The notes beneath the pieces are model-generated. The model saw only the letters and a program-made list of their open reading frames with translations. It had not been told where the DNA came from and did no database searches. Below, piece by piece: positions 15,983-64,000 of a stretch of 64,000 nt of DNA. The stretch comes from Laburnicola sp. R22_1 (Eukaryota > Ascomycota > Dothideomycetes > Pleosporales > Didymosphaeriaceae): positions 1,798,001 through 1,862,000 of the forward strand of contig JACONQ010000008.1 of the NCBI GenBank assembly GCA_014281115.1, written 5' to 3'. How positions within the stretch are numbered: position 1 is the first letter of the stretch; the number at the start of each line of letters is the position of its first letter. The position numbers and the translations under genes were made by a program.

Positions 15983-17853
15983 ACGTACTTTGCACTCGAG
16001 TCGGACACTCCATCGAGTCGGACACTTTGCCAAGACCCCACCAAGTTCTGTACTATTCACGATAGTATAGAGTCAACATGAACTATTTTCAATAGTCTAA
16101 ATAGGCTAAACTATTCAGAATCTACTTCTATAAGCTGCCTACAGGTTTTTTTATTGTGCCCAGGCTTGCCGCAGCGTCCACAGCGCCGTTGAGCGGATTC
16201 GCCTCCATCAGTGCGCACCCTCTTCTTTGCCTTCTTGCCATCACCACGCACCCTAAAGTTCTTTAGAGTAGCTAGTCGCTGGCCCTCTTCAACTGTAAGG
16301 ACTCCTTCTTGCTGCAATCGCTTTCTTTTATATGATTTACGTTGTGTGGCGGCCTTATTAGTAGCTTGAAGTTCGGCGTTGCGTTTGGTTATCAACACCA
16401 AAGAATGCCCTATTAGCTCGGCGCCTTTGACGAGCTTTTCCACCGCCTTAACCATATAAGTTGGGGAACTATCCACATGCCTTTGAATCCTCTGCTTAAC
16501 CAGCGTCGATTGCGACCTAAGTTCTGTACTATTTCGCGGAGTTTGCGACTCCCATGTACTATCGCGAATAGTACAAAGTGGAGGCGTACGCAGGCGGACG
16601 TTAAGCTGCGATATTACAGCTTCTAGGTTGTGGGGCACTAGGCTAGCACCTTGAAAGCCTCCTTTGATATTACTTTCAGTAAACGAAGCCTTAAAAGCAG
16701 CAATAAAGCAAGGCAGGAACTCGATTTTAGTGATGTGCGTGATGTGGTTGCGCATTAAATCCTTAGCTTGGCGCCTATACGCCTTTTTTAAAGGCGCGAA
16801 ACAGCCCACATCAAGTGGCTGCAAGAGGTGCGACGAATGCGAGGGCATACAGAGAGTAACAATATTGCTCTTCTTGCAGTAATCCTGGAATTTGAGCGAG
16901 TTGTGACTTTCGTGGCTATCGATAATGAGCAAACGTGCTCTACTAGTAGTACGCCTCTTTGTATGCTTATTAAAGTGCTTTAGCCATTGCAGACCAAGCT
17001 TATTTATTGTCTAGCCGTTCTTAGAGACTGCAATAACCCAATTATGAGGTAGATCCTTCTCCTTATACTAGGCGGAGAGGTGGTGCTTGCCCCCAAAGAT
17101 AATGAAGGGTGGGATCCACCAACCTATCGCGTTAATGCCTTGGATGACTGTTGTCCACTCCCTATTGCCCTGCTGCACCTGCTTTGGCTGTCCTTGACGC
17201 TCAGAGCCTGTGACTACTGCTCTAGTCGATATCATGCCTATTATAAAGCCTGCTTCATCAAAATTGTAGGTGTCCTTGTCTAGGATACTATATTTGGCCT
17301 TTATGTTCTCCACAAGCTGGAACCAGTCTTGTATCACCTCAGGATCCTCCTAGAGAGCTCTCTTATAGTCGTACTTTCGATTGAACTTGACTTTAAGCTC
17401 TGGCTGGCGCTTAACAAAGTCATAAGGCCACCTCTGGCCAACTAGCTCGTAGTGGCGTGCAGCTAGTAAAGAATCAGCCATATCTTTTATAGCATTGAGC
17501 TAAGACGGAAATCCTCGCGCGTCTAGGTTGAGTATATGCTCCACAATCGCCTGCTCCTCTTTTATAGTAAGTCTTATTTTGTTAGGTGCGCAGTCGCGTC
17601 TAAACGTCTTTCTAGCGCGTTAGTTGCTAAGTGTACTTTAAGAGACGTTGTAGATAGCTGCAGCGCGTCGCTGAGAGAGTGTCGCGTCTTGTTCAATAGC
17701 CTGGATTGCAAGCTGTATACGCGCTTCTTTTAACGCCAGTAGTTCGTTGTGTGGTTGAGGCATCGCGTTATACTATTGCTGATAGTACGTTTTGGTGGGG
17801 TCTTGGCAAAGTGTCCGACTCGATGGAGTGTCCGACTCGAGTGCAAAGTACGT
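15983..17853 (-). mobile_element. pogo/Fot-type DNA transposon, copy 2 (1,871 bp)
   Basis: The ends are ACGTACTTTGCACTCGAGTC at 15983 and its complement ending at 17853, with TA duplications at 15981-15982 and 17854-17855. TCGAGTCGGACACT occurs twice in each end at a 17-bp period, followed by TTTGCCAAGACCCCACC. It lies in the hAT relic 273 bp to the right of copy 1. It is the same family and exact length as the element reconstructed at 46592-56195. Confidence 0.93.
16111..17763 (-). pseudogene. pogo-type transposase, several RIP-like stops
   Basis: An ATG at 17763 opens MPQPHNELLALKEARI, and the frame can be followed to 16111. It is interrupted by TAA/TAG codons where Gln (CAA/CAG) or Trp (TGG) is expected: near 17640, 17620, 17500, 17350, 17070 and 17010. 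Recognisable parts are NFDEAGF (first Asp), LLIIDSHESH (second Asp kept), LQPLDVGCF (third Asp) and a C-terminal zinc knuckle CGRCGKPGHNKKTC. The longest open stretch, 16111-16932, covers the C-terminal half. All stops are explained by C-to-T or G-to-A changes. It is not functional as it stands. Confidence 0.85.
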
Positions 17854-30874: not shown

Positions 30875-33000
30875 CCCTGTCTCGGCAGTCAATGCGCACC
30901 GTCACTCAATGCGCAACCCCAACATGACGCGCCCCAACTTTGACGCGCCCCAACTCCACCAATATGGACCCAATTAACGCCGCGATAGCAGCAATCGAAG
31001 CGCAAGAACCAGGAGAATTTTTATCATACAATAAAATCGCCAAATAATTTGGTGTTGTACGCTCTACGTGGACGCGCAGGCACCAACGCGTCACGCAGGC
31101 GCGTACTATCACTGATGGTACACGTCGTCTACTCCATCCACAACAAGAAAAGGGGCTTCTACAATATATCACCTACCTTACTGAGCGTGGCCTTCCTCCT
31201 ACACGGCAGATGATACAAAATTTTGCTTCCTACATGGCAAAAAGAGACGTTAGCATGTCCTGGGTTGATCGCTTTGTTAGGCGCAACCCCGACTCCTTGA
31301 TCTCACGATGGACGACTGGGCTTGACAGCAATCGCCACAAGGCTGATTCAGAGGCAAAATACAGGCTCTACTTTGAGCTTCTACACAAGAAAATTACAGA
31401 GTATAGTATAGAGCCTCAGCATACGTACAATATGGACGAGAAAGGCTTCCTCCTTGGTATCACTGGCCGCTCAAAAAGGATCTTCGATAGGCCTCTATAT
31501 AAGAGTCGCCAAGTAAGGCAATCTATACAGGACGGCAGCCGTGAGTGGATCTCGCTCATCGCATGTATATGCGCCGACGGATCTACTGTTGATCCAGCGC
31601 TAATCTATCGATCTGACGCCGCGACTCTACAATCAAGCTGGGTTGAAGAAATCAACGTCAATTCTCACAGAGTCTTTATCACCTCATCAACCTCTAGATG
31701 GTCAAACAATGAGATAGGGCTTCAATGGCTTAAACAGGTGTTTGATCGCTGTACAAAGGAGAAGGCTCGACGGCAGTGGCGACTCCTAGTCCTTAATAGG
31801 CATGGATCTCACGTTACTATAGATTTTATCAACTACTGCGATCAGAATAAGATCCTCCTTGCGATATTTCCCCCTCATGCGACTTATACGCTGCAGCCTC
31901 TTAACGTCTGCGTATTTAAGTCTCTCTCAGCTGCCTACTCTGACGAGCTCTCCAGATACCTGTATAGGAGCCAAGGACTGTCAACAATCGCCAAAAGAGA
32001 CTTCTTTACGCTATTCTGGAAGGCCTGGACGACGTCAGTTACGCCGCAGTTGATTACCAAAGCTTTTAAGTGTACAGGTATCTCGCCGCCAGATCCAACG
32101 CCTATCCTCAAAAGGTTTAACAAAGAGACTCTGCCAGAGCCAGAATCACCAGTGAGCTCTACCTCAGTACTTAGCGCGTCAGATTGGCGTAAAATAGAGC
32201 GACTGTTACGCTCCACTGTGAAGGATATCGCGACTGAGGAGTCGCGTAAGCTGAGCCAGACGATACACTCAATCTCTGTACAAAAGCAGCTCCTAGAGCA
32301 TGAAAATAAGGGTCTCCGAGAAGCTCTTGCAAACCAGAAACGGCGTCAAACAAAAGGCAAGACTCTGCCCTTAGAGCAACCTAAGGAGTGGCATGGAGGA
32401 GCAGTTTTCTGGTCACCTGCCCGCGTACAGAGGGCGCGTAACTCGCTCAGCCAGCAGGAGGCTGAAAAACAACAGTTACAACTCCAAAAAGCTCAGCAGC
32501 AAGAGATCCATATAGCTAATAAACAGCTTAAAGCTCGTTTACAGCAGGAGAAGCGCGTTGAGCGGGCAGCAGCTAGAGATGCGCGCGCCAAGGAGAAAGC
32601 TGATCAAGCTGCTGAGCGACGCCTCCGTCAACAGGCTCGCAAGACTTAACAACAACTTCAAAAACGTCTCAAAATTGCCAAAAAGGGAAGTCAGAAAGCT
32701 TCAAAAGCTACTCATACAGTTACAAAGAGGAAGAAATCTACGCCAGCACCTGTACGCGTTGATGCGGCGGCATCTGCGCCATCAACGCCATCATCGCGCT
32801 GTGGCCGTATAATCAGAACACCAAGCAGATATCTATAATCTGACTAGCTAGCAATCATCTATAGCTCTATGAGAAGCCAACTCTAGAAAATCTCGCGATA
32901 AAAGCTTTTGTGTAGAGCTCTATAGCCTCATATTGCTGGCTGAGCGATTACGTTGGGGTTGCGCATTGAGTGACGGTGCGCATTGACTGCCGAGACAGGG
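30875..33000 (+). mobile_element. pogo/Fot-type DNA transposon (2,126 bp)
   Basis: The 49-bp inverted ends begin CCCTGTCTCGGCAGTCAATG, flanked by TA at 30873-30874 and 33001-33002. TCAATGCGCA occurs twice in each end at a 17-bp period. The two ends look identical by eye over 49 bp, so the element is fairly young, although its transposase is damaged. It inserted between the P450 promoter and a gene-poor stretch. Confidence 0.94.
30964..32838 (+). pseudogene. pogo-type transposase with two stops and altered catalytic residues
   Basis: The frame runs from ATG 30964 to a stop at 32838 (625 codons). It is broken by TAA at 31045-31047 (in AK-stop-FGV) and TAA at 32647-32649, both likely former CAA. 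The longest open part is 31210-32646. It shows the CENP-B-like helix region (MSWVDRFVRRNPDSL), the first catalytic Asp in YNMDEKGFLLG, then LLVLNRHGSH and LQPLNVCVF. In those last two the second and third catalytic Asp are Asn. A long Gln/Lys/Arg-rich coiled-coil tail follows. All changes fit G-to-A or C-to-T. It should be catalytically dead. Confidence 0.88.
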
Positions 33001-43026: not shown

Positions 43027-46000
43027 CCCTTAGCGAAATAGTTAATTAAATACTATTTATTTATAATAGCGTTCTAATAAGTTATAGTAGGTATAGCTAA
43101 TACTATTTATAATACTAGGTATAGAAATTCTTTTAATATATATTTATATAGTATTATTATTACTAAAAAGGTTTTTAAATTATTTAGTAATTACTACTAG
43201 TAGCTTTAGCTAAGTAAATTTAATTTAAATATAGAAAAAGAGTTATGTATAGTAGTATTAGTATTTATAATTTAATTTTAAAAATAAAGTAGTAAGCGCT
43301 TATATATTAATATAAATATTATTTTCTATTATATATATTAGATAAATAGTTTACTATAGTTTAATTTAAGTAAAAGGCTCTACCTTTTTTATTATATTAT
43401 TTAGGATAAAATATTAGGAAAAATTTTAAGCGCGCGTGCGCATTTATAGCACCTAGGTAGCTTTGCGTATACCTACGCACTAAAAGCGCTCTAAGCGCAC
43501 CTATAATACTACTTTTTTTTTAGTGTACGTATACGTAAGGTTGCGTAAGAATACGCACCTATTCTACTAGTATACCTAGGGCACCTAGAGCATCTATAGC
43601 ACTTATACTATTAAAATAATGCTAATTAATTAGCAAATAAAGCTCTTTAATTAGCTAGAATTTAAAAAAGCTTAGTAAGCTGCTTAGTAAGCTTTTTAAA
43701 AAAGATTTCTTAAAGTATAAAGTTAAAGTCTCTTACTAGATAGTAATTACTAGTTAATATAATAGTACTAATTACTAGTGTATTATATAGAACTTCAACG
43801 TAATTCTAAATTCTAGGTTTTATAGGCTTAAAAATAAAAAATATATAGTTTTTTAATTATTTAAAAGAGTTAGAGTAGGCGAAAATTAGTGGCTTAGTAA
43901 AGAATACTATTTTAAAAAGTATAAACTTTAATAACTTTTTAACTACTTTATTTTTATTAAAACTTTTTTAAAATTTTATATACTATATTATTAGTACTAT
44001 ATATTTATATAATAATATTACGTAATATATATAATAACTAGTAAAATAAAGGGTTTTTTATTAATTACTAACTAATTACGTAATAAAAATAGTATTTTTA
44101 AATTAAATAATTAAAGACTAGTATTTCTCTATAAATCTATTAAAAATTAAAATTATAGCTACACTAGTAAACAATTTATAAAGCTTTAAAAAATTACTTA
44201 GTTAGACTATTTATGCATATTTGCGCAAGTCTGCGTATATATACGCATCTCTAAGCATTTTTGTGCTAGCAAATTGCCTATGTAAAAATGCACACAGATG
44301 CGCACATTTGTGTATAGTTAAGTAGTCTCTCTAGAAAAACCTTTTCTAATAAAGCCTTTGTTATTCTACCCCTAGGTAGATAATTTAATAATATTAGAAA
44401 AGTTTTTCTGCTTAACTATACAAATTGTGCGCAGATGTACACAGACTTATATATTTGTGCGTATTTTTACATAAGCATTTTACTAGTAAAAAAATACTTA
44501 GAGATATATAGATATGCGCAGACTTATATAGATATACACAAATAGTCTAAATAAGTCATTTTTAAAGCTTTATAACTTTTTTACTAGTAAAGCTATAATT
44601 TTAATTTTTTAATAGATTTATAGAAGAAATACTAGTCTTTAATTATTTAATTTAAAAATACTATCTTTATTTTATAATTAGTTGGTAAATAATAATAAAA
44701 TCTTTATTTTACTAGTTATTATATATAGTACTAATAAATTATTATATAAATTTCTAAAAAGTTATTAAAGTTTAAACTTTTTAAAATAGTGTTCTTTACT
44801 AAGCCACTAATTTTCGCCTAATCTATTTCTTTTAAATAATTATATAACTATATATTTTTTATTTTTAAACCTATAAAATCTAGAATTTAGGGTTAGGTAG
44901 AAGTTCTATATAATACGCTAGTAATTAGTACTATTATATTAACTAGTAATTGCTATCTAGTAAGAGACTTTAACTTTATACTTAAAACTAGTCGGCTTAC
45001 TAAACGCCTTTTTAACTTTTTTTTAGTTTAAGGTTAAATTAGATTAAGATAGAAGGTTATTATATACTACTATATATAGCACTTAATTCTAATTAAAAAC
45101 TAATCTTAAACACTACCTAATAATATAATAATAGTTTAAACTTACTTATACTCTATTTACACCTTATAAGCTTCTAATATATATAAGATTTACTTATGCT
45201 ATATATAGCCTACTTAGATTGTTACTATTACTATTATTAACTATCTACTTACTTAGATAAGCTAATCTAATAGTAGTAACTATAGCTAGAAAAATCTCGC
45301 AAATTTATATAATACTCTTATTACACTAAAAATTATTAATAAATACTTTATTCTCTATATTTTTCGTTTTCTACTAAATTCTATTACTTACTAAAAATAA
45401 TTGCTACTAAAACTAAAAATAAATCTAGTAGTTCTTTATAAACTAGATTAGTTATTAAACTAGTAGTTCTTTATAAACTAGATTAGTTATTAAACTAGTA
45501 GGTATATAAGAATCGCCTTGCAAATAGTTAAGTATACTAGACTTTTATAGATAATCTTATAGATAGAATAGAACTTTCGTATTGTTATCTTAGTAGTAGT
45601 AGCGCGAAACTTTAGCATATACTCTTAGGCGGCGGCAAGTACCTTAGCTTTAGGAATAATATTAATACCTAGATAGATAGTAGAGCGTAAAGGTATATAT
45701 AACGAGATAGTAAGAAATTTATTAAGAATAACCTTAATATAGTAATAAAGTAATAAATATATATTTAGTATATATTACTTTTATTTTACTTATAAGCAAA
45801 GTAGTACGTACCTATTAATATAGTAAATACTAAATATTAACTTATATTTACAATAATCTAGATAGCGATTTATAACTTAGAATAGTAAAGAAAGAATAGA
45901 TAACTATAGCGTAGCTACGCTAAAGTTTTATCTCTTTTCTAAAGTTCTAAGTAGCCTCTTTATAAAAGCTTTGTATATATATACAAGCTGTATACTAAAA

Positions 46001-46589
46001 CTACTAAGCTTACTTAGTAGTTTAAATATACTTTTTTATAATTATTTATTTTACACTCTTTTTTAATTACTAAGTAGGAGGCTTTGCTTTTTTTATTATA
46101 TTATTTAAGATAAAAGCCTTTATTATTCTATCTCTAGATAGTTAATTTAATAATATATACTTAAAAATATTTTTAAAAAAAGCTTACTAAGTAGCTTACC
46201 AAGCTTTTTTAAATTCTAGCTAATTAAAAAGCTTTATTTACTAATTAATTAGTATTATTTTAATAGTATAGGTGCCCTATATATCCTAGGTGTATTAGTA
46301 GTATAGGTGCGTATCTTTGCGCAATCTTATATATACGTATACTAAGAAAAAAGTAGTATTGCTAGTGCGCTCTAAGTGCATGTAGTGCGTAGGCGTGCAC
46401 AGACGTGCTTAGAGCCGCTTAGGTGCCCTAGGTGCTTATACTCGCTTAAAACTTTTCCTAATAAACACATAGTTTAATTAAAATAAAAACGTAAAGTTAT
46501 ATAAAAAATACTGCTAAATAGTTCTTTTATTTTTTTTATAAACTAAGTACTTATACTTATATTTTTTAGTAATATATAAAATAAAAAAG
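43027..46589. repeat. TA-rich RIP-like island with large inverted repeats
   Basis: About 3.5 kb of extreme TA content without open frames. An imperfect palindrome spans about 43730-45000 with its centre near 44350-44375; for example CTAGTTAATATAATAGTACT at about 43752 recurs inverted near 44930. A second inverted pair joins about 43400-43680 with about 46200-46480, marked by ACGTATACGTAAGGTTGCGT. The segment at about 45000-46200 is an inverted, partly deleted relative of 61800-63800. These are old degraded copies of at least one element family inserted head to head. Confidence 0.65.
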
Positions 46590-46824: not shown

Positions 46825-48631
46825 AGCCAAGGGTCCTAGTTTCCGACAGCCCCGTGTTTCCGACACCCTGCAAAGCCCCGCCGCCGTCACCACCCTGGTT
46901 ACGAATGTGTTGGTCGTTGATCCCGTGCCGAACGTCGAACCAATGCCTGCTCCGCTTCCTCCTTAGAGCAACTCTCCTCTACCTCCTGCGTTGGGCTTCT
47001 CGCCTTGCGAACACGTTGGGAGGGCTCCTAATTAGTCTAAGAGAGAACCTCTGCAAGACTCGCGAAGCGATTGTTTGGATTAATTGCGACTTTGCGGCGT
47101 TTTGGCGGATTTGCTTGCTTAACATGCTCGCGCAAGGAAGCAATCTTATAATCCTTTATAGAGACCTCTATTGCGATACGGTCTAGCGCTGTGGCAGCAA
47201 GCCGAATATATCGTCGTGTAGCTAGAGAGCTATTCTTCCTAGAAAATAGCTTCACAATGTCGCCACCGCGTTTTGGCGTCCTAATATCTATAGTAGAAGA
47301 GGGGGGTGTTAACGGCCGTTGGCGCACTACGACCCACCGAGAACCCAAGGGCTTATCCACGCTCTTAGGATACAGCCCTATTGCCTTCCACCCAGCTCGT
47401 ACGCACTGCTCTCGAAGACCAATTTTACGCGCTTCTGCATAAAATTTAAGAAATCTAGCCTTCCTAACCTTTGTTGCATCTGTCAGAGCTGTATGCTTGC
47501 TAAGGAACTGCCGATACGCTGCCTTTAGACTTAAGAAACAACTAAGATCTAAAGGCTAGAGTATATGTGAAGTATAGGTAGGCAAAAAGAGCAAGTAAAT
47601 ATTATTTAGGTAATATGTAGTTATAAATTCGTCTGAGGTATGACTGCTATGACTGTCGACAATAAGCAACCGTGCCTTGGATGGATTGTTAGGCTTAGTC
47701 TGGGGCAAGAACACCTTCTCTAGCCACTTAATAGCAATTTTGTTGCTTGTCTATCTATTTTGCAAGAAGGTAACATGCTAGCTAGGATGTTGAGCTAAAA
47801 ACTCCCGCTTAAACCACTGCTCCTGGATGCTTTTGGCCTTAAAGATAACAAGGGGGTCTAGAGCGACACCAAGCGCAGAGATACACTCTATTACAGAGGT
47901 CCAAGTATAGGCATTTACTGTCTTAACTAGTACAGAGTTTGGATTTTCCTGCGAGGAGCTAATAACAAGCCTATTAATACCCTGGCCTTCTATAATGCCG
48001 CCCTTGTCGGCATTGTACCTCCGTTGGGGGGGAATCCAGCTCACGGTCCCGTACAGGTTGAACAAGTGCCTAATATTATCTGGAGTAGCTGCATTTATGC
48101 GTTCCTAGTTAGTCTGGCGGCCTAACTTTGTCTTAATGGCTGGGTGGCGCCGCAAAAAGTGATTAGACCACTTCCTCCCTAGGTTCCTGTGGTCACCCTC
48201 TTGCTTGAGCACGCCAGTTGCGATGGCTTGCACTTGCGCATGCGTTGGCGCGTAACTGAGGGCCTCCTGCTAGAGAATCTAGTGCTCTAGATGCTCTTCT
48301 TGAACAGTTGTAAGCCGCTGTTCACCGTCGTAAGCGTGTTGGTGAGGTTAGGCACTATTAAAGCGGCCGCGAAGAGTGTTCTGTGGTATCCTATGCCGAG
48401 CAGCAGCAGTGGCCAAAGCGACCCCAGATTTGAGGTCTGCGAGTGCATTTTGGACGTCGCCCTCTGTATATCTAGCTATTGGAAGACAGAAAAAATGATG
48501 CAAAAAGATGAATTGAAATTAATGAAGAATTGAATTTTTAAGAACTTATATTCGGTTGTAGTGCATGATGAGGAGGCGCGGTTGTGGGGCTGTCCGAAAC
48601 ACGGGGGTGTCGGAAACTAGGACCCCTGGCT
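46825..48631 (-). mobile_element. Nested pogo-type DNA transposon (1,807 bp)
   Basis: Ends AGCCAAGGGTCCTAGTTTCC at 46825 and, inverted with few mismatches, at 48631. TA lies on both sides (46823-46824 and 48632-48633), and the copy 3 transposase sequence continues without loss across the pair. GTTTCCGACA occurs twice in the left end at a 17-bp period; in the right end one of the two copies reads GTTTCGGACA. It belongs to a different family from copies 1-3. Confidence 0.92.
47037..48480 (-). pseudogene. Transposase relic of the nested pogo-type element
   Basis: The minus-strand frame is broken by several TAG/TAA codons but remains legible. It shows a helix-turn-helix-like start (KSGVALATAAAARHRIPQNT), HAQVQAIATGVLKQEG, RKWSNHFLRRHPAIKTKLGR (CENP-B-like), and RYNADKGGIIEGQG around the first catalytic Asp. 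RLLIVDSHSSHTSDEF around the second Asp and a basic C-terminal tail (NPPKRRKVAINPNNRF) follow. The start codon could not be fixed; the coordinates give the recognisable extent. Confidence 0.75.
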
Positions 48632-49939
48632 TAACGCGCTGGAAAGACGTTTAGACGCGACTGCGCACCCAACAAAATAAGACTTACTATAAGAGAGGAG
48701 CAGGTGATTGTGCAGTATATACTCGACCTAAACACGCGAGGATTTCCGCCCCAGCTTAATGCTATAAAAGATATGGCCAATTCTTTACTGGCTGCACGCC
48801 ACTACAAGCCAGTTGGCTAGAGGTGGCCTTATAACTTTGTTAAGCGCCAGCTAAAGCTTTAAGTTAAGTTTAATCAAAAGTACGACTATAAGAGAGCCCT
48901 CTAGGAGGATCCTAAAGTAATACAAGGCTAGTTCTGGCTTGTGGAGAACATAAAGGCCAAGTATAGTATCCTAGATAAGGACACCTATAATTTCGACGAG
49001 TCTGGCTTTATAATAGGCATAATATCGACTGGAGCGGTAGTCACAGACTCTGAGCGTTGAGGACGGCCAAAGCAGGTGCAGCAGGGCAATAGGGAGTGGA
49101 CAACAGTCATCTAAGGCATTAACGCAATAGGGTGGTGGATCCCACCCTTTATTATCTTTGGGGGCAAGCACCACCTCTCCGCCTAGTATAAGTAGAAGGA
49201 TCTACCTCATAATTAGGTTATTGCAGTCTCTAAGAACGGCTAGACAACAAATAAGCTTAGTCTGCAATAGCTAAAGCACTTTAATAAGCATACAAAGAGG
49301 CGTACTACTAGTGGAGCACGTTTGCTCATTATTGATGGCCACAAAAGTCACAACTCGCTCGAATTCCAGGATTACTGCAAAAAGAGTAATATTATTACTC
49401 TCTATATGCCTCCATATTTGTTGCACCTCTTGCAGCCACTTAATATAGGTTGTTTTGCGCCGTTAAAGAAGGCGTATGGGCGCCAAGCCAAGAATCTGAT
49501 GCGCAACCACATCACGCACATCACTAAAATCGAGTTCCTACCTTGCTTTATTACTGCTTTTAAGGCTTTAATTACTAAAAGTAATATCAAAGGAGGCTTT
49601 CGAGGTGCTGGCCTAGTGCCCCACGACCCAGAAGTTGTGATATCGCAGCTTGACGTCCGCCTGCGTACGCCTCCACTTTGTACTATTCGCGATAGTACAT
49701 AGGAGTCGCAAACTCCGCGAAATAGTACAGAACTTAGGTCGCAATCGACGCTGGTTAAGCAGAGGATTTAAAGGCATGTAGATAGTTCCCTAACTTATAT
49801 AGTTGAGGCGGTGGAAAAGCTCGTCAAAGGCGCTAAGCTAATAGGGCATTCTTTGGTGTTGATGACTAAACGCAACGCTGAACTTTAAGCTGCTAATGAG
49901 GCCGCCACGCGACGTAAATCGCATAAAAGAAAGCGAGTA

Positions 49940-50660
49940 ACGTCCCTCCCCGCGTGGCGGAAAACCCACCGTGCCGGAAAATTTGAGGGGTACTTCGACT
50001 TCAAGCGACTATAACTCTGCGCACATGTCGAGCTTCACTAAAATTATATATAAATAATGTACTGTAGCTATTTTCGAAGATCTCGGGCGCCTCTCACCTA
50101 TAAATTACGTTTGCATCGTCGCCTTCGCGCCTGATTTGCAGAGAGCCTCCTTCTATAGCGTGACAGAGTTCCTTCCCTATAGCACCACCATCAAGCTCTT
50201 ACCACTCCATAATACTCATAAATGGTCTTATCGAGCCTTAGAACCTCGCTATAATGCTGAGAAGTTATCATCAACCTTGTGCCTGCTGTCGCGCACAAAT
50301 TCATGCAAGGCCGCTACCCCAGTCGGTACTTCCGATCGAACCAACTACCGATTTCGGCTAGTGCAAAACGACCCCGCACCTACATAATCATCGCGATGTA
50401 ATTTATTTGCGGCAAAAGACCGCCTTACCACTGCTTGGCGTAATAATTCCCCGGGTACCACTATTTCCAATACCGTACCACTCTTGTAGCCGTGCGTCGG
50501 AAATGGACCGAAATACCACCATTTCTGCCCGAAATGCCACCATTTGACCGGTCGCATGACCATCTACCATTAGCGCTAGGATAGCTCAAAACACGTCTAT
50601 CGCGATTCTAAAATGGACGCGTTCTGCCATAACAGCACGCTCTGTCACCACCAAACACTA
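49940..50660 (+). repeat. Left 721-bp inverted arm of the cargo element
   Basis: Matches 55141-55861 in inverted orientation from the very end to the phrase CACCACCAAACACTA, after which the two sides diverge. Short open frames in the arm appear in both copies and reflect the duplication. The inner boundary lacks any terminal-repeat sequence, so the arm is not a complete small transposon by itself. Confidence 0.93.
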
Positions 50661-50804
50661 CGAGCTAGTCTTGATAATCATTACAGAAGCTTTCCATTTT
50701 CCAGCAGCAGACACAAGGCTTTCTTCCATGATTCATGAAAAACAGATCTCCGGAAGGATATGGCGAATAGACAGGGACCAATTATCGCCGCCTTGTTGCG
50801 CATG

Positions 50805-52919
50805 CTACGGCGACGGTGATCCCCTCTCCTCGATCTTACTCAGCGGTCTCTTACCTCCCGCAAGTGGATCGAATTCGCCCCTACTTCCTTTTCTAGGTCG
50901 AGGCGTGGGACCAAAAGCCTCCATTCTGATGGTTCCAGTTGGAGGAATGGGAGGCAATTGCGGGCTCCCGCCACTAACCGGGGACAAGCTCAGCGGCAAC
51001 ATCGGTATAGCGTCGCTACCTCTGCTTCTTGATCTTGGCCGCCCGTACTGTCCACTATCCAGCTCCGCTTCGTCATCGTAGGGCCTTCGCGTCGTGACGC
51101 CGGGGCTGTGTTCAAAGGATGGCCGTGCTTGGCTGGGGCTGCTATCGCTGACGCTGCTCATACCTCGTCTGTGGCCTTTGCCTCGGAGGCTGCTCTGAGC
51201 GGACATTCTGGTGTCCAAGCTGGACAGTCGATGGTCGTCTGAAAAGGGGTCCCGTGCGTTTCTTGTTGTTGCGGCGACGCCAGTAGCGTAGACAGTGCCG
51301 TTCCAGACCAGCTCGTCTCCGTCGTGTGCTACCCTTTCATGCCCGATTTCTCTGATGATGGCTCTTGCTTCCTGTTCAGGGCCGGCGTTGGTGAGAATGG
51401 GTGCCCCGAAGGCCTTGCCCGTCTCTAATGGCGAGAGCGAAGTATAGTGGTCGAGCTGCCACCACCCCCACAGGAGCAACATCGTTGCTATGATGCCGCA
51501 GACCATGACAGCTACTGAGGCTGCGAGCCACCCGAAGTCCGTGATATTCCAGAGCTCTTCTCCGCTATAGACCGCGTCAAAAGTTTGGTTGCCTGTGAGT
51601 TCCGGTGACAAAGCATAGGCCGTTCTGAACATCAATGCGAGCACAACCGTCATAACATACTCAACGGGCGAGTACCACACCAACGGACATCTCCGAATAA
51701 ATTCAGCCCTTCCCGGATCTCCTAGAAGGCTTGTGTTGAGAAACATATTAGCCCAGAATGGAGCAGATCGGTCCTCGGTCGTGAAATTATACCCCACGAC
51801 ATCAATGCCGTCGATTTGCCTTTGTATCAAATGCGCCTTCGCTCTGTATATCATACCGACAGCCTCGAGAGCCCCCCGCAGGGGCCCCATGAATGCCTCC
51901 GGATTCTCCATCTCTGCGTCGCCAGCTGATGTATAATTTTTGACGATAGCTGTGGTTGGATTGTGGAATACATGGGTGAAGTTAGGCCTGAGGATACCAT
52001 TTCTGATGCGGACAGGATATAACATTGTAGCCAGAATGATGTTGCAATTTGTCGTCGTAAGGGTCCCGATACAGTTGTCATCTACCGCGGAAATATATGT
52101 CGAATCGAACAAGAGCTGCGGTGGACTAGTCTCGGGTTGCAGCTCCATGTCTATACTGAACACTGTGGAGAAATTCTCGCCAGGATCGAATAAGCCAAAT
52201 GGTACGGACTCGGAACTGCAGACGAAGTTGATTCCAGCTGCGGTCACGTTACCCTCGCAGGTGCCGTTCCCTGGACAATGAAACTGTGCCCCGTCCTCGA
52301 CCGTAAGGTTATAATCAAAGAAAGTGTCCTGTTGTATACCGATTCCCCAAGGCCGAAACGCGGAGACTGTGCCAAATGCGCCATCTGGGATCTCAGAGGC
52401 AATACGGATACTCATCGTTATATCCCTTGTTATATCGCGTAACTCTGGTTTCGTGGCTTGCTGCAAAAACGGTCCGATCGTCAGTTTTGCAGCGAAGACC
52501 ACCAAAGCCCCTAAGGCAACTCTTTGCGCGTGTCCGCCGGCTAGGAACGCGCCGGGAATATCTTTTGGGCTGGCACCAGCGTTGATATAGTGAAGCGTCT
52601 TTAATGTGGTTCCGTGTGTAATGCTTCGCCACCAAACCACCGCAACCCCTGCTGTGAACAGGCCGCTGAGAGCAATCGGATAGATGCCAGCCAGTACTGA
52701 GAGGAGAATTGAGGGTCTGATAGCCCATGACCCAACCGGATGTTCGTGGGACCTCAATAGGATGAATATCGATGCGATGATACAGGCGACGAGGAGAGTG
52801 AGGAAGGTGAAGATCAGGGTTGGTAACTTGTAGGTGGATCGCTGGCCTCTCCACGCGCTTTGATTCTTGGTGTACTCTCTAGCAGGTGCGAGCAAAGATC
52901 GTGAGGAGCCGTCGGCCAT
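50805..52919 (-). CDS. Polytopic membrane protein, DUF3176-like (704 residues), transposon cargo
   Basis: One uninterrupted frame from ATG 52919 to 50805. Hydrophobic segments occur at about residues 33-54 (LIFTFLTLLVACIIASIFIL), 70-95 (ILLSVLAGIYPIALSGLFTA), 132-150, 420-440 and 463-490. Between segments 3 and 4 a loop of about 270 residues has many N-glycosylation sequons (NGT, NVT, NFS, NFT, NYT, NTS), so it probably faces outside or the lumen. The last 200 residues are Ser/Pro/Arg-rich and likely cytoplasmic. GVAVVWWRSITHGTTLKTLH resembles the fungal DUF3176 group, whose function is unknown; the assignment is by eye. The frame shows no stops or RIP-like damage although it lies inside a mobile unit, suggesting recent capture or continued selection. 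Confidence 0.75.
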   Translation of the reverse strand: MADGSSRSLLAPAREYTKNQSAWRGQRSTYKLPTLIFTFLTLLVACIIASIFILLRSHEHPVGSWAIRPSILLSVLAGIYPIALSGLFTAGVAVVWWRSITHGTTLKTLHYINAGASPKDIPGAFLAGGHAQRVALGALVVFAAKLTIGPFLQQATKPELRDITRDITMSIRIASEIPDGAFGTVSAFRPWGIGIQQDTFFDYNLTVEDGAQFHCPGNGTCEGNVTAAGINFVCSSESVPFGLFDPGENFSTVFSIDMELQPETSPPQLLFDSTYISAVDDNCIGTLTTTNCNIILATMLYPVRIRNGILRPNFTHVFHNPTTAIVKNYTSAGDAEMENPEAFMGPLRGALEAVGMIYRAKAHLIQRQIDGIDVVGYNFTTEDRSAPFWANMFLNTSLLGDPGRAEFIRRCPLVWYSPVEYVMTVVLALMFRTAYALSPELTGNQTFDAVYSGEELWNITDFGWLAASVAVMVCGIIATMLLLWGWWQLDHYTSLSPLETGKAFGAPILTNAGPEQEARAIIREIGHERVAHDGDELVWNGTVYATGVAATTRNARDPFSDDHRLSSLDTRMSAQSSLRGKGHRRGMSSVSDSSPSQARPSFEHSPGVTTRRPYDDEAELDSGQYGRPRSRSRGSDAIPMLPLSLSPVSGGSPQLPPIPPTGTIRMEAFGPTPRPRKGSRGEFDPLAGGKRPLSKIEERGSPSP

Positions 52920-54163
52920 GGCGTCAGCTGATCGTGATGCTTATTTGGCATCCTCCAGAAAAGATTGCAACGCGGGTGCGCTCGAGGATATATGTTGGCT
53001 TGATCGAGTGAAGATGGATGTGAAATTCCACTGCTAACATATCTATTATCCTAAATGACGGGGATTGCTGGCCTGGCATGGGAGGCACCTGTTCGGAACG
53101 TGGAGGCGCATGCCTGCAGCCACAGTGGGCGCCGTGACCACACACCAATATTTCCACGCCCAAGACTTCGCTTGTGTGTGTGGTTGTTGCGCGTCTCCAG
53201 CTCTTGAACACGATGTCTAGGAGATCGACGATAGAGGAATGAAAATAATTCAAGCCAACGGCCAAAAGCCGACCCTGCTGCCCAGAAGGCTGAAGGCAGA
53301 AGGCAGAAGGCAGAAGGCTCGAGGTGTGGTGTCGTGGACCCACGATAGGCGCTGAACGATGCGCAGCTGAACCGCCATGCCGCTCATTGGAGCGCAGCGC
53401 GTATCCGCAGTGGCTCAGCCGCAAAGTAAAATAGAAGCCTGCCAGGTGGACCGCAGCGAAAACATGACTAGATATGACAAGAAAAGAGCCCGAGGGCCGA
53501 GAAAGAGGTCGTCAGCTGCACTTGACATAGCTGTATGTCGTGAACGAGATAGGTTCGTAGGACAAGCGATGGCGGTGCTAGTCTGCCAGAGTCGCGGTCA
53601 TTCCTAGACATACAGCTGATGCAGCCGTTCGCCGGGAGGTTGCCATGGCGTGCATGTGAGTGGATCCCTCATGTTACTGCGCATATGATTTTCTGTATGG
53701 TGCGACATGCTGTGGGATTTGGGGGCCACCTACATTGCTGTGCCGTAGCAAGTACGCCTGGGTAAAAGTAGGAGAGCTCACAATGGAAGCGGAAGTCGGT
53801 CCTGCCCTGGGATGGGGACAGAATTGTATGTAAGATGTCAAAAGACGAGTACAGAAGCCAGTCGGCCAGGCGATCTCCCAACATCCGAGCGTCAAGCCAA
53901 CTCCGGCTCCCCCTTCATCGCTCCCGAGGTCGTGTATACCTATCCGACATCGCGATGGTTAGGGCACCGGAGCAGTCGCCCATGTTCAGAATCCGCAGAG
54001 CATCAACACGCAGGGCATGGATGGGAAAGCTCGGGCGAAGTTCCGATCACGAGGGGGCAAAGGGCCAAGTAACCGTATAGGGCGTCGCCCACTTAGCTTC
54101 CTGTGTGGGGCGGTTATGGAGGCCACAGGTTCGCAAGGCAATACTGTGTAAGGATATTGTAGT
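52920..54163. other. Non-coding part of the cargo region
   Basis: It contains the likely promoter of the membrane-protein gene, a GGCAGAA microsatellite at about 53290-53318 and no supported coding region. Composition is like ordinary genic DNA here, unlike the TA-rich island around the nest. Confidence 0.5.
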
Positions 54164-54978
54164 CTATAGCCCATACCCCCTCAGCCACCTCAACTCCCTT
54201 GCCTGCTGCTCCAGCGCTCTCCGCATCTCAGCCCCATACTCCCTCTCCCTCAGCCTGGCCCCCTCACTCCGCTGCTCCTTCGCCATGCCCTCCCAGTGAT
54301 CTACATTGAACGCTAGTTCGCGACCAAAGCCCACCATTCCCAGCTTGCCGTCTCCCGTCCAGATAATCAAGTTATCCTGCCCGAGGGGCACTTCTGACGA
54401 AGGTCGCGCGTGCAGCGAGGGTGACACTGTTGGCAGGATCTTCTGCACGATGTCGCCCCAGCCCGCCTCGAGTCCAACCTGCGACGAGTTCGCCGTGTCA
54501 TTGATGTTAAAATGCCGGACGGGCGTTGAGCCGTCGCGCTCCACCCACTTGAGGTTGCCGTCGCCGTCGGAGAAGACAAGGCGGGTGCCATGTGGAGCTA
54601 CGGAGAGGAGCTTGGAGCTGGATGCAGTTTGGCGGTTTTGGTAGCATGCATGATTGTTGCGGGTTGTACGGTTGTCGGACAAGTTGATCGAGCGATGGGG
54701 GTCGGAAGATAGGCCGTAGAGCTCGAGGGAGCCTTTGCCTTTGTACTCGCCTGCTGCTATGAGTGTGTGTCCCGGGGTAGACTTCGCTTCGCGGAGGCGA
54801 CTAGGGTGGGTGTATGGCCGATGGGCGCGCAGCTCGTGAGGGACAAAAGGGTGTGGTATCGCCGTAAGGCATGATAGGCGCCCCCGAATGCACAGTACCA
54901 CGCAGCCGCGGAAAGAAGCGCCGGTCGAAATTCAGGAAGCTCGTGAAGCGCCTTCGTTGCTGGAACGGCACTTGGCAT
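54164..54978 (-). CDS. WD-like protein gene or 5'-truncated fragment, transposon cargo
   Basis: A minus-strand frame from about 54840 to 54164 reads as the C-terminal part of a beta-propeller-like protein: SLELYGLSSD, LLSVAPHGTRLVFSDGDG then NLKWVERDG, QDNLIIWTGDGKLGMVGFG, and a helical end RRALEQQARELRWLRGYGL. Upstream, another frame opens at ATG 54978 (MPSAVPATKALHELPEFRPA), so either an intron or a frameshift lies near 54800. Similar C-termini occur in longer fungal F-box/WD-like proteins, so this is probably missing its N-terminal half, cut at or near the right arm. Annotating it as a working gene is uncertain. Confidence 0.45.
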
Positions 54979-55140
54979 GGAATCGTGTTGGGTCGCTGGA
55001 AGTTACTTGAAAAGAAAGCCTCTGGGTAACCATGACGTGAAGAACCGACTCTTTTGCAGCATCAATCGATGCAAATGTCTGTCCAACATATAGAGTATTG
55101 GGCTGAGAGGTTGCTATCGAAGCTCTTCGTAGTTATTTTC

Positions 55141-55861
55141 TAGTGTTTGGTGGTGACAGAGCGTGCTGTTATGGCAGAACGCGTCCATTTTAGAATCGCG
55201 ATAGACGCGTTTTGAGCTATCCTAGCGCTAATGGTAGATGGTCATGCGACCGGTCAAATGGTGGCATTTCGGGCAGAAATGGTGGTATTTCGGTCCATTT
55301 CCGACGCACGGCTACAAGAGTGGTACGGTATTGGAAATAGTGGTACCCGGGGAATTATTACGCCAAGCAGTGGTAAGGCGGTCTTTTGCCGCAAATAAAT
55401 TACATCGCGATGATTATGTAGGTGCGGGGTCGTTTTGCACTAGCCGAAATCGGTAGTTGGTTCGATCGGAAGTACCGACTGGGGTAGCGGCCTTGCATGA
55501 ATTTGTGCGCGACAGCAGGCACAAGGTTGATGATAACTTCTCAGCATCATAGCGAGGTTCTAAGGCTCGATAAGACCATTCATGAGTATTATGGAGTGGT
55601 AAGAGCTTGATGGTGGTGCTATAGGGAAGGAACTCTGTCACGCTATAGAAGGAGGCTCTCTGCAAATCAGGCGCGAAGGCGACGATGCAAACGTAATTTA
55701 TAGGTAAGAGGCGCCCGAGACCTTCGAAAATAGCTATAGTACATTATTTATATATAATTTTAGTGAAGCTCGACATGTGCGCAGAGTTATAGTCGCTTGA
55801 AGTCGAAGTACCCTTTAAATTTTCCGGCACGGTGGGTTTTCCGCCACGCGGGGAGGGACGT
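55141..55861 (-). repeat. Right 721-bp inverted arm of the cargo element
   Basis: Inverted copy of 49940-50660. Differences seen by eye are near the outer end (TTTGAGGGG against TTTAAAGGG), and at single sites further in; all are C/T or G/A changes. Confidence 0.93.
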
Positions 55862-56197
55862 TACAGCGTGAAGGAGTCCTCACAGCTGAAGAGGGCCAGC
55901 GGCTGGCCACTCTGAAGGAGTTTGGGGCGCGCAGTGATGGGCAAAAGGCGAAGAAGAGGGTGCGCGCTGATGGAGGCGAATCTGCTTAACGGCGCTGTGG
56001 ACGCTGCGGCAAGCCCGGGCATAACAAAATAACCTGTAGGCAGCCTGTAGAAGTAGATTCTAAATAGATTGGCCTATTTGGACTATTGAAAATAGTTCGT
56101 GTTGACTCTGTACTATCGTGAATAGTACAGAACTTGGTGGGGTCTTGGCAAAGTGATCGACTCGATGGAATAATCGACTCGAGTGCAAAGTACGTTA

Positions 56198-56340
56198 ACT
56201 AATAAGTAAAATAGTTTAAAATACGTAAGATTTAAAAAAGCTAAAATTATAAAAACTATTTAGCTAATAGTAACTTATAGTTAACGCAAGTTGTAAGTTA
56301 GTCGTTATAGCTACAGCCTTGGGCGATTTCTTTGCCGCCA
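56198..56340. repeat. Right remainder of the TA-rich island
   Basis: About 100 bp of TA-rich sequence after copy 3 ends at about 56290 with AGTTGTAAG (56289-56297). Beyond this, composition returns to normal and the next gene begins. Confidence 0.5.
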
Positions 56341-56351
56341 TCTTCCATATG

Positions 56352-58083
56352 TGATGATGCTTCGTACACTCTCGAAAATTTTCGAACGACGCGCACATAT
56401 GCAGCGAAAAACGCAAGCACAGCAGGCTCAGGCCCAGGATCAAGCCCAGGAGCTACAATTCCGCAAAATGCAGGCTGTTCGTGTGGGCGGTACGATGGGG
56501 TCCGCCCTTTGACACCACCGCAGCCTGCACCTCCTAGTGAAGGTCAGTTTACCTTATCATATTTTGTCGCATGCTTCTGTTGTCGTTCCCAGCTATTATT
56601 CTCTTACTGTCTCTTTTAAGGCGCTTCAGTCCTTCGTTCAAAAAGCACAAAAGAATACGCAGCGGCAGGACGGTCTCGGGTTACTCGGACTTCTACACGT
56701 TCCTCCTTAGGTCTGCTTTTGACTATTGTTCTTGCTAACAGCAACACAGAAGAGTCAGGACCCTCGCCCAGGGATTCGGCCGTAGCGGAACTGGAACAGG
56801 CGGAAAAGGAAGTAGACCAGAAATCGGTGCCGGATGTCAGACTCGCAGCAGAGCGCAAAACCTTCATCCACCCCAAAGGCGAACTCATCCTCGAAGTCGG
56901 TCGCGGTGACGGAACACGCGAGATTGTCGTGCAGGCCGACACAGTGGAGCACTTCAGTCCCCAATGGAAAGAACCCATCGCAGGCAGCAAGCGCAAATGG
57001 AAAACACGCCTCACAGGAACAACACGCCAGCGGCTCGTGCTTAGAACACGAAGACTACGACTCCCAGACGATGACCCTGATATGATGCTGGTCCTCATGT
57101 GGCTGTCGCACGCCTGGCACGTGGGAAAAGTATCGAAAAGTCTTACCTTTGCTCAGCTTCTCGCTATGGCGCGGATATGCCAAAGCTACGACATGAACGT
57201 GCAAGTGTCGCCGTTCATAGGACGCTGGATCTACTCGCATCAGGCTAAGCTATTGAGCCCGAACTACGAGCAGTGGCTGTTCATTGCGTATCAGTTTGGC
57301 CTCGAGCGGCACTATGTTGAGCTGGCGAGGCATCTGACGCAGAATTGCTGCGTTAATACAAGAGGGTCGTTATACGTTCCCATGCCGGGTAGTGCTAGCC
57401 TCCTGACTGGTTATTTCCCAGGTGACACTATTGGTAAGTGCTCGCATATCTTGATTCCATGGCACCAATCACGTCTCTGCTGCTGACGGGTAATCAGCGA
57501 CCATTCGACACACGCGCATCAAGACACTCACCAAGATTTTCGACATGGTCTACCGTCTCGTCGACACCATGGTGATGACGGACATCTGTGAGGCAGACCT
57601 GCCGAAATCGTCGAATCCCGAAGTCACCGCTTCACTTGCCAGTGAGCGCACTAGCTGCACGCATTGCCAACACGGTGACTTGGTCCGCTATCTGCGGTCG
57701 TACGGGTACTGGCCACCCATCACGCAAGCTACCATGATCACGGAATCGGTCGAACAGGCAAGTTACCCCGACCCTATGAAGCGTAACCAACTCACCCTGC
57801 AATCTCCCAGGTGGTGGAGAAGCTCACCACGCTCAAGTCGATCCGGTTCCGTAACATGAGCCTCACGCTACTGGAGGACATCGAAGCCGCTGTTGCTGCG
57901 GGCAGGCGGCCTACGGATTATCTAGGCCGTATCCACGCGCGGTGCGATGTTGGCAGGAAGCTGGCGGGCGAGATCATTGCGGCCAGAGATGCGATGGAGG
58001 ATCCGATTTCGCAGGTCACGAGGGATGAGATTAGGGTGAATGCGCACAAGACGGGACTGGATGCTGATGTGCCGGAGACTTGA
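56352..58083 (+). CDS. BTB/POZ-like domain protein
   Basis: The well-supported exons are about 56620-56709, about 56754-57433, 57499-57762 and 57813-58083. The last intron has a GC donor (CAG then GCAAGT, acceptor CCCAG); the one before is GTAAGT-ATCAG. Residues FIHPKGELILEVGRGDG, VVQADTVEHFSPQWKEPI and LPDDDPDMMLVLMWLSHAWH with FAQLLAMARICQSYDM match the fungal BTB-like pattern: strand, buried core helix, PDDDP, and a helical tail. The C-terminal part is helical (TLKSIRFRNMSLTLLEDIEA). BTB proteins mediate protein-protein contacts, often with cullin ligases; role here unknown. The 5' end is unresolved: the ATG pair at 56352 can join through a short GTGGGC-CGCAG intron, but this is tentative. 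The start is 155 bp from the transposon nest, which may have replaced its promoter. Confidence 0.65.
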
Positions 58084-61110: not shown

Positions 61111-64000
61111 TTTTTACTAGCTATTTATAAAAGTTAATATATATTATAATACTTTTTATAGCTATAAGCTTAAATTATATAATGAAATTTAAAAAAAGAT
61201 ATTTTAAAAAAATTTAAAAATAAGTAATTACTTATAAGTAAGAGTAATTACTTACAACTTTTTAAATAATTTATATCTTAGCTATTTCTTAATATTTTTT
61301 AATATTTTTTTAATATTTTTATAGCTATTATCTAGACCTATATTATTAGAATTTTAGTTATTAATAATTCTATAAATTAGAAGGTAAAAAGGCCTTAGTA
61401 AGTAGGCTTAGCAAATAAGTTAATAAGTAACGCTCCTATTACTAGCTAGTAGCAATATTTATTCTCCGCTCCGCTAATACGCTCGCCCAGCCTAGCCAGT
61501 AATAAGAATAAGATTTTATTAACAAAACTTTCGGCTTTTGGCTATATGGTTTGCCGGTATCTATTTATATATAACAGACACGTGCTCTTATATAGATGCC
61601 TAGAGATAGTAATGGGGGAAACTAAGCGACGGTCACCTTACTTGTAAGTAAAATAATAGAATTTAATAAAAATTATATTTTTATAATCTAGAGAAAAACT
61701 AAAAATTTTATATATTAGGACTTTAGTAATAACTATTATAGTTAGCTTAGAATTTAGCTTTAAAGCTAGTAAGTTTAAAAGATAAATAATATATAATATA
61801 ATATATATAGCATTAAATTAACTACCTAGAGATAGTACGACAAAGGCTTTTATCTTAAATAATATAAAAAAAAAGCAGAGCCCCCTGCTTAGTAATTAAA
61901 AAAAGTGTAAAAAGGTAGTTATAAAAATACGCGTTTAAACTACTAAGCGAGCTTAGTAGTCTTAGTGCGCATAGCTTCTATATACAAAGTTTTTATAAAG
62001 AGGCTACTTAGAACTTTAGGGGAGATATAACTTTAGCGTAGCTACGCTATAAGCTATTTCTTCTTTACTATTCTAAGTTATAAACTACTATTCTAATTAT
62101 TATAAATAATATAAGTTAATATATTAATAAGTATATACTACTACCATACTTATAAATAGAATAAGAGTAACACATACTAGATACACTATTACTCTATTAC
62201 TATATTAAGGTTATTCTTAATAAAATCCCTACTATCTTTCTACGCCTACGCTCTACTATCTATCTAGGCATTAAAATTGTTTCTAAAGAAGTACTTACTA
62301 TTACTAAAAAGTATATACTAAAAATTTATACTACTACTATTAAAGAGGCTATTAAAGTAACTATACTAGAGTTCTATTCTATCTAGATACTTATTTAGCG
62401 TAAGGGCGAGTATACTTAACTATTTATAAGGTAGTCCTAGTGTACTAGTTAGGTTAGTAGCTTATCTAGTTTGTAAAGAACTGTAAGATTAAAGTTCTAC
62501 TCTAGTAGATATAATTACTTCTTTTTTATAAACAAAGCTATATCCCGTAACTATACTATAGTAAAAAAGAAAATCTAGCTATAATCTATTTTTCTGTATA
62601 CTAGCTCTATAAGATAGATACTATATAAATATACGTAAGTTAATAACACGCTTATTATATAGCACCCTATAAGGCTATTATATATATATAGGTAGGGTTA
62701 ACTTAACTATAATTTAGAACTATTATTAAGTAGTAACTTATCTTATCTATATAGATAGTAATAAGGTTAGAGTGCTTATTGCCTATATAAAGAAAGCCTA
62801 ATTCTACTACTATCTTACGCACTACTGCAACTAATAACTATAGCTAAATTAAATAAGATAAAGATATAACTACGCTATAAAGTAAAGTTTAACCTTAAGT
62901 ACGCCTAATTTACTATAGACCCCTTCTTATATCCCTAAAACTTAATTAATAAGCTTACAATTATTACTAAAAAGAAGCTAAAGCTTAAAATAACTAATAG
63001 TAATAAGCTTCTAGTTAAGTTACTTATACTAGATTGCTACACAATGCACATATATAGTCTATACTACTATTTACTAGCTTAGGTTATATATATATTAATA
63101 ATATGCGTAGGGACTACTTAATAGACTAAGGCAAACCTAGGATATATTATACAGTAGAGAAGAAACCTAACAAGGCTACTTAATACTATAAATAATAATA
63201 AGTTCTTTTAAAAGCTAAGGAAGTGCAATAAAAGAGGTGCTAAGTAGTTAAATAATGTTTAAAAGCTGTTAAACTAGCTATAGATAGTAATTACCTATAA
63301 CCGCGTTATTTCTAAAATTAAAAAGTTCCTTAATTATATAATTTAACTGTAAAGGGCCTGTGGGTCTTAGTTTAGACCGGAAATTACTTCTTATTAGTAG
63401 CAGAATTATCTAGTAGGGGATATAAAAAAGATAATAAGGTGTTTATTAATAAGCTATATAGTAGTAAGAGCGTTACATAAATCTATAAGATTTGTCTAAC
63501 TATTATTACTATTATTACTATTAAGTTAGCTTATCTAGCGCGTAAGTGTAAATAACTAATAATAGTAGTAGTAATAAGCTAGGTGTGCTATATATGCTAT
63601 AAGTAAACTTTATATAGGTTAGAAGCTTATAAGGTGTAGATAGGGTACGAGTAAGTTTAAACTATTATCGCGTTATTAGGTAGTATTTAAGATTAGTCTT
63701 TAATTAGAATTAGGTACTGTATATAATATATAATAACCTTCTATCTTAATCTACTTTAACCTTAAACTAAAAAAGGTTAACAAAGATGTTTAGTAAGTCG
63801 ACTATAATATAATATATAATAATATAAAATATAAAAATCTTAATAGTATATTATATACTATATAGTACTAGTATTAATAAAATTTATTTTTATAACTAAT
63901 ACTAAGCTCTATATATTTAAAATTTACCGTACACTAAAAGGTCTATAATATTTCTCTTTCTAATATTTAAAAATTAAATTTAAAAATTAAGTTATATATA
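61111..64000. repeat. TA-rich RIP-like transposon relic, continuing past the window
   Basis: This is 2.9 kb of TA-dominated sequence with stops in all frames. Parts at about 61795-62400 and 63480-63790 are inverted relatives of about 45600-46200 and 45000-45290 (shared phrases TAGCGTAGCTACGCTA, AAGGTTATTCTTAATAAA, and GTCGACTTACTAAACATCTT on the minus strand against GTCGGCTTACTAAACGCC). The stretch between, about 1.1 kb, is mostly missing from the 45-kb copy. The original element class cannot be read; it may be a retrotransposon. Confidence 0.6.

Follow-up and report, generated by a model that had tools for sequence, protein, structure and literature searches.

The window unit and the interrupted relic

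The stretch analysed here, referred to as the window, comprises 64,000 nucleotides of the Laburnicola sp. R22_1 genome (contig JACONQ010000008.1, positions 1,798,001 to 1,862,000) and contains a gene-carrying unit delimited by long inverted arms. The host genome amounts to 63.9 Mb in 26 contigs, and the window is part of the contig named C25; those protein neighbours that could be named belong mostly, where recognised, to fungi which we take to be members of the Pleosporales. The unit measures 5,922 bp from arm end to arm end. Its left arm (49940..50660, forward strand) and its right arm (55141..55861, reverse strand) were defined by aligning one against the other, which revealed 8 mismatches over 721 bp, every one of them a transition. 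Reading of the flanks placed a TA target-site copy outside each end (49938..49939 and 55862..55863), and the outer end of the element begins with ACGT. An initial annotation, made from the sequence by a model, had described two 721-bp arms with about eight transitions and a TA on each side, and these descriptions were borne out. No Rfam RNA reaches the gathering threshold in or near the unit (window 48000-57000).

Two pieces of coding sequence lie between the arms. The first is an intact 704-codon gene for a DUF3176 membrane protein (50805..52919, reverse strand), recognised by open reading frame (ORF) reading and domain scan, so that the full membrane-protein gene annotated initially stands. 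The second (54164..54950, reverse strand) is the 3' part of an F-box/WD gene that is truncated at its 5' end and whose frame shifts near the start, between the first residues and the remainder; it had been annotated as a WD-like gene or fragment, and only the latter description can be maintained. This fragment matches, at 62%, the C-terminal portion of an F-box/WD protein of 628 residues whose gene lies on contig C12. As an intact gene, DUF3176 was found only once in the genome, and C26:269842 gives a weak partial match to it (27-31%).

The DNA on both sides of the unit belongs to a pogo-like relic with a DDE_1 domain. Its left part (48632..49937, forward strand) and its right part (55864..56197, forward strand) align to a related element of the same window that is uninterrupted (15983..17853, reverse strand) and serves as empty-site reference. 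Positions 48632-49936, where the alignment stops, match 17622-16318 of this copy at 91%, and 55861-56197 match 16317-15981 at 88%. When the window flanks are fused through one TA they form one open frame, like that of the uninterrupted copy. This agrees both with the annotated resumption of the host coding sequence at the second TA and with the proposal that the whole 5,922 bp moved as one unit, one relic being split at a single TA. The 15983-17853 copy, proposed in the initial annotation as the empty site, fits in both length and frame; the TA, however, is not preserved in that copy, which has TTG where the fused window site has GTA, and its former presence there would have to be presumed. 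The annotation had counted the absence of an empty site from sister strains against insertion; an empty site was found, although in a related copy only. The left part of the relic differs from the copy by 108 transitions and 8 transversions, an excess that would be expected after repeat-induced point mutation. A second empty site is provided by an element with related ends at C20:1988733-1991187, whose flanks, fused with one TA, give an unbroken reading frame belonging to another pogo-like gene. We also considered, and rejected, a native segment bracketed by two separate insertions as the source of the arms, since the empty site contradicts it.

A family of elements with common ends

The annotation had regarded arms found only at this locus as a sign against a mobile unit; on the contrary, they recur across the genome. 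In each 721-bp arm, an outer module of ~460 bp is followed inwards by sequence matching a separate repeat. The outer module, present in the window at 49940..50400 (forward strand) and 55401..55861 (reverse strand), was recognised as a family-wide conserved terminal module by genome search and end alignment; it is common to 14 aligned ends, all of them preceded by TA (14/14). In a genome search with a divergent family end, in which 40 of 69 candidates were scored, 32 of the 40 ends formed 16 convergent pairs (left arm forward, right arm reverse) with a spacing of 5.3-21.5 kb. A plain terminal inverted repeat (TIR) pattern, allowing at most 3 mismatches, matched 28 genome sites against 0 for the reversed-pattern control, and it was this search that supplied the other end for the C5 element described below.

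Ten elements, the window unit included, were read from end to end, and TA is present at both ends in all of them (10/10). Their arms are 0.3-2.3 kb long in nine cases and 43 bp in one, and seven kinds of cargo lie between them. The element with the 43-bp TIR is the one at C20:1988733-1991187 (2,455 bp), which encodes a 290-aa protein without Pfam family. The C26 element (6,583 bp; arms of 2.3 kb, 94%) carries a gene for a collagen-like protein, the C21 element (5,338 bp; arms of 2,040 bp, 99.8%) one for a GRF zinc ribbon, the C8 element (6,587 bp) genes for MYND-type and OTT_1508 deaminase-like proteins, and the C5 element (6,741 bp) one for a PNP-NACHT-ankyrin protein, while the elements on C22, C1, C24 and C13 (6.1-8.0 kb) hold a HET-NB-ARC-TPR gene or the remains of one. 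An eleventh element (C25:2852539), whose outer left end was not covered, contains a HET gene and a nested Tc1. The element at C13:318861, with two candidate far ends (3.9 kb and about 17.5 kb), was excluded from the counts. The search suggested in the initial annotation, for other arm pairs with different cargo, thus yielded 16 further pairs and ten elements with TA on either side, and the description of the window unit as a non-autonomous gene carrier is supported by the varied cargo of this family and by the lack of a transposase inside, as detailed below. Two further arrangements were observed: two facing TIR-pattern sites ~560 bp apart at C20:2062258-2062817, a possible miniature family member, and two family ends at C13:202720 and C13:203636 (locus L032) that point the same way, 916 bp apart and each preceded by TA.

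That four collinear copies of the HET-NB-ARC-TPR element are present at sites unrelated to one another implies that whole gene units have moved. These four elements, which carry genes of the NOD-like receptor (NLR) type, are collinear from TIR to TIR at 91-99%. The C22 and C24 copies share 96.9% over 4,663 columns and 97.7% over 1,241 columns, those of C1 and C22 share 96.4% over 6,311 columns and 99.0% over 1,263 columns, and the C13 copy shares 91-96% with the other three. Homology ends at most 9 bases beyond the TIR ends, and the flanks are different. The four copies also vary in length inside an array of similar TPR units, which suggests that repeat change may have occurred alongside transposition. 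Seven of the ten NLR gene copies that are at least 77% identical over most of the query lie within arm pairs. At the level of domains, the 16 pairs span 168,427 bp (0.26% of the genome) and include 8 HET matches, distributed over 7 of the 16 pairs, against 0.40 expected (Poisson p 1e-8, with the HET total taken as the 150 listed matches of a full count of 153). This p value is too small, because four of the eight matches belong to one multiplied NLR family and independent acquisitions are fewer. NACHT (NPHP3_N) enrichment in the 16 pairs was not significant (1 against 0.21 expected, p 0.19); additional NACHT genes, uncounted, are located behind ends that were unpaired or found late (C5:409927, C8:1680590, C13:320198, C26:631339 and C3:331408). 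PADLOC, applied to the receptor protein, returned two weak matches and nothing else.

The favoured interpretation, to which a probability of about 0.83 is assigned, is that the window unit belongs to this gene-carrying family as a non-autonomous DNA transposon with a TA target, and that it was inserted whole into the pogo-like relic. It builds on the observed boundaries, TA flanks, empty site, family ends and varied cargo, and on the multiplication of another member as a whole unit. The variable arm lengths given above and the solo-looking ends, 8 of the 40 scored ends being without partner, would also be compatible with a unit that is not mobile, in which two inverted MITE-like (miniature inverted-repeat transposable element) or solo elements flank a native DUF3176/F-box segment by chance. 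Such an arrangement is nevertheless very improbable: the two parts of the relic make up one element, split at a single TA; the four NLR elements keep their collinearity through the cargo, with different flanks; and TA stands at both outer ends of all ten complete elements.

Proposed mobilisation in trans and growth of the arms

Six transposase queries (four pogo-type, one Tc1 and one hAT-like; tblastn) found nothing inside the ten read elements. The same search covered the C25 element and the 3.9-kb stretch on C13, where the sole match was the nested Tc1 of the former. The initial statement that no transposase lies inside holds for the elements read and these six queries, and the domain scan of the window cargo agrees with it. 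The DDE_3 gene of the C25 element was considered as the family transposase and rejected, because it lies within its own perfect inverted ends and is read as the nested Tc1. A genome search for DDE_1 produced 2,759 first-look candidates, of which 150 were scored; none of the 150 falls in the 16 pairs when the lists are compared by eye, a result of little weight with ~0.4 expected. The 2,759 candidates would represent a very high pogo/Fot-type load if even part of them were real.

The best TIR period is 17 bp in both of the family ends examined (2/2) and in all the window pogo-type TIRs tested (3/3), and two of these three begin with ACGT, like the window element. The window's own pogo-type elements (13843-15709, 15983-17853 and 30875-33000) share with the gene-carrying family the TA on both sides and the 17-bp periodic TIR, but they are ~1.9-2.1 kb long and contain a DDE_1 gene or what is left of one. 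The CENP-B box has a length consistent with a 17-bp period, and a periodic TIR of this kind may be a defining feature of the pogo/Fot group. Judging from the TIR architecture, it is somewhat more likely than not that a pogo/Fot-type enzyme acts in trans. A DDE_1 transposase of this type would recognise the outer end together with the 17-bp-period TIR motif, and chromosomal DNA would become cargo once it is bracketed by the ends of two elements, or by one end and a copied end.

The presence of NLR-like or patatin-TPR genes in Pleosporales Starships and in ToxhAT (PMC9594970, PMC6737239) would fit with arms derived from a large self-mobile element, a Starship or a hAT relative, that has lost its recombinase or transposase here. 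This derivation is improbable and was set aside on the basis of the TA target (10/10) and of the scanned cargo: no DUF3435-type gene was found among the Pfam-scanned cargo proteins (a scan of part of the ORFs of the elements; the genome was not searched for DUF3435), the in-frame hAT query had no match inside the elements, and the ends are built like those of the window pogo-type elements. Target-site duplications of hAT elements are 8 bp long. The flanks of the elements shown share TA alone, with no 8-bp duplication of the kind that hAT or ToxhAT would leave.

The arms of the TA-target family also retain traces of how they may have formed. An interspersed repeat (54953..55392, reverse strand) spans the inner border of the right arm at 55141, while the left arm has only its first piece (50409..50546, forward strand), the second piece not being found on the left side. 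Comparison of the repeat loci showed both pieces in this order at three of nine (L011, L012 and L014), the other six having the arm piece only. In its simplest reading this suggests that the right end may have been copied inverted to the left and have taken part of the repeat along, so that the left arm, instead of being an original end, looks like a copy of the right one. Arms would thereby grow when one end is copied, in inverted orientation, onto the opposite end, and the half repeat of the left arm would illustrate this. A 24-row tree of ends pairs the two window arms with each other (99/88) and places next to them the long end of the C20 element (98/95), the other TIR of which is the one of 43 bp. 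The 2,040-bp arms of the C21 element extend into its cargo gene. The two ends of the C5 element fall in different major subfamilies, C5_L on a long branch and C5_R with an odd base make-up, as expected if the ends of two elements had been joined into one unit. The arm sequence is also connected with a MITE-like repeat of ~590-660 bp with 123-134-bp inverted ends (L021, L023, L026, L027, L028 and L029), whose end corresponds to arm positions 464-601; many contigs contain sequence matching this section of the arm.

Several points weigh against the favoured interpretation. In the divergent-end search the 8 partnerless ends stand beside the 16 pairs, the element at C13:318861 has its two possible far ends, and 3 of the 10 good NLR gene copies lie outside any known arm pair. 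The direction of arm copying depends on one repeat, with both pieces in 3 of 9 loci, and a search in which 150 of 2,759 DDE_1 candidates were scored revealed no autonomous element bearing such ends. Elsewhere in the window, the segments 43472-46393 and 61804-63804 consist of repeats with several inverted pairs, and 43650-46224 is AT-rich.

Origin of the cargo and comparison with known systems

The two cargo genes are neighbours in other fungi. In three relatives the DUF3176 and F-box/WD genes have adjacent or almost adjacent locus numbers (Kalmusia N0V90_009168/009169, Melanomma K505DRAFT_328876/328875 and Lojkania CC78DRAFT_21635/21633), and therefore the cargo looks like one ancestral segment. 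In the host genome, a decayed or strongly diverged DUF3176 stretch (C12:3802500-3805300; L047) lies ~4.2 kb from the F-box gene of C12; it is best matched by Kalmusia, with 47% over 47 residues, and its other pieces are weaker. The ancestral neighbourhood of the cargo in this genome thus appears to be on C12 and not at the window site. DUF3176 and F-box lie on the same strand in the window and on opposite strands on C12, a difference for which we have no explanation.

The phylogeny of the cargo, from which the initial annotation expected its source, gave a divided answer. The window DUF3176 protein is 91% identical to a metagenome protein and 68% to that of Trematosphaeria, against 41-46% to those of Kalmusia, Paraphaeosphaeria and Paraconiothyrium. 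In a 20-row tree it groups with Trematosphaeria (100/100), and its union with the whole Kalmusia/Paraphaeosphaeria clade was rejected by the approximately unbiased (AU) test (p 4.8e-57), the group having been chosen after the first tree was seen. Three AU tests with an incomplete Kalmusia clade, now superseded, had likewise led to rejection (p 8e-9, 6e-37 and 1e-51). The F-box fragment, on the other hand, is undecided. It is 88% identical to P0053, a protein of another fungus, against 62% to the host C12 copy, and in a tree of 48 hand-chosen homologues out of 120 listed, plus the fragment and the host gene, it groups with P0053 (99/97), with an unsettled bootstrap. The AU test, however, rejects neither a union of the fragment and the host C12 gene (p 0.17) nor a clade made up of the fragment, the host gene, P0053 and Kalmusia (p 0.32). 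A horizontal origin would thus be favoured by DUF3176 and left open by the F-box fragment. The two groupings kept by the AU test, as well as the DUF3176 relic near the C12 F-box gene, which implies that the ancestral locus was once in this genome, would also agree with capture of the cargo long ago in its own lineage, from its own DUF3176/F-box locus, the divergence reflecting age or lost constraint. We consider this a serious contender with slightly less than even chances: it has to accommodate the Trematosphaeria grouping of DUF3176, the rejected union with the Kalmusia/Paraphaeosphaeria clade and the closer similarity of the fragment to P0053, and the placement of the host itself relies on one gene, the C12 F-box gene, which groups with Kalmusia (98/95).

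Fungal NLR and HET repertoires change fast, and how their copies spread is an open question. The family described here places receptor genes inside delimited transposable units, one of which has been multiplied whole, and the same vehicle carries other complete genes, which offers a testable route to move, duplicate and perhaps transfer fungal genes by means of ordinary TA-target ends, without a giant Starship. A bolder and rather unlikely proposal is that these elements might be specialised in carrying entire fungal genes over short ranges, chiefly those of the HET/NLR type, multiplying them within the genome and importing segments from other fungi; in the present case, they would have brought an intact DUF3176 gene of foreign origin into a genome whose own C12 copy had decayed.

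Gene-carrying TIR transposons are already known. In the literature searched, which excluded most subscription papers and all preprints, no report was found of TA-target long-arm elements with NLR/HET cargo. The family is comparable with Pack-TIRs and Pack-MULEs, non-autonomous TIR transposons with host sequence between their ends; Pack-TIRs are described in animals, with template switching proposed as origin (PMC8277862). Similarly, the elements described here have host genes between TIRs and no transposase of their own by the six queries. Parental copies of the window cargo might be sought in the C12 F-box paralogue, only 62% alike, and in the C12 DUF3176 relic. The present elements differ by whole genes in several members, arms of 0.3-2.3 kb in nine of ten, a TA target, a fungal host and recurrent NLR-like cargo. 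The hAT-borne transduplication of histone H3 in Pyrenophora and Pseudocercospora is another case in which a fungal DNA transposon multiplies a host gene (PMC3538342, PMC6710886), although it involves the hAT superfamily and H3 cargo, whereas several cargo kinds, a TA target and no detected transposase characterise the present family. In Galileo of Drosophila, TIR length is highly variable, growth occurs by recruiting inner sequence and chimeric copies have diverged ends, but it belongs to the P-element superfamily, generates 7-bp target copies and, in the part of the source available, is described without whole-gene cargo (PMC3573991). ToxhAT is likewise a gene-rich TIR-bounded unit of the Pleosporales, with reported horizontal transfer and a Patatin gene with TPR, and it is distinguished by 74-bp TIRs, a length of 14.3 kb and a hAT-like transposase gene (PMC6737239). 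Starships resemble the family described here in the nature of their HET, NACHT and ankyrin cargo genes, and they differ from it in their much larger size and in a DUF3435 tyrosine-recombinase 'captain' (PMC9594970). To our knowledge, Starships do not have long inverted arms of the window type.

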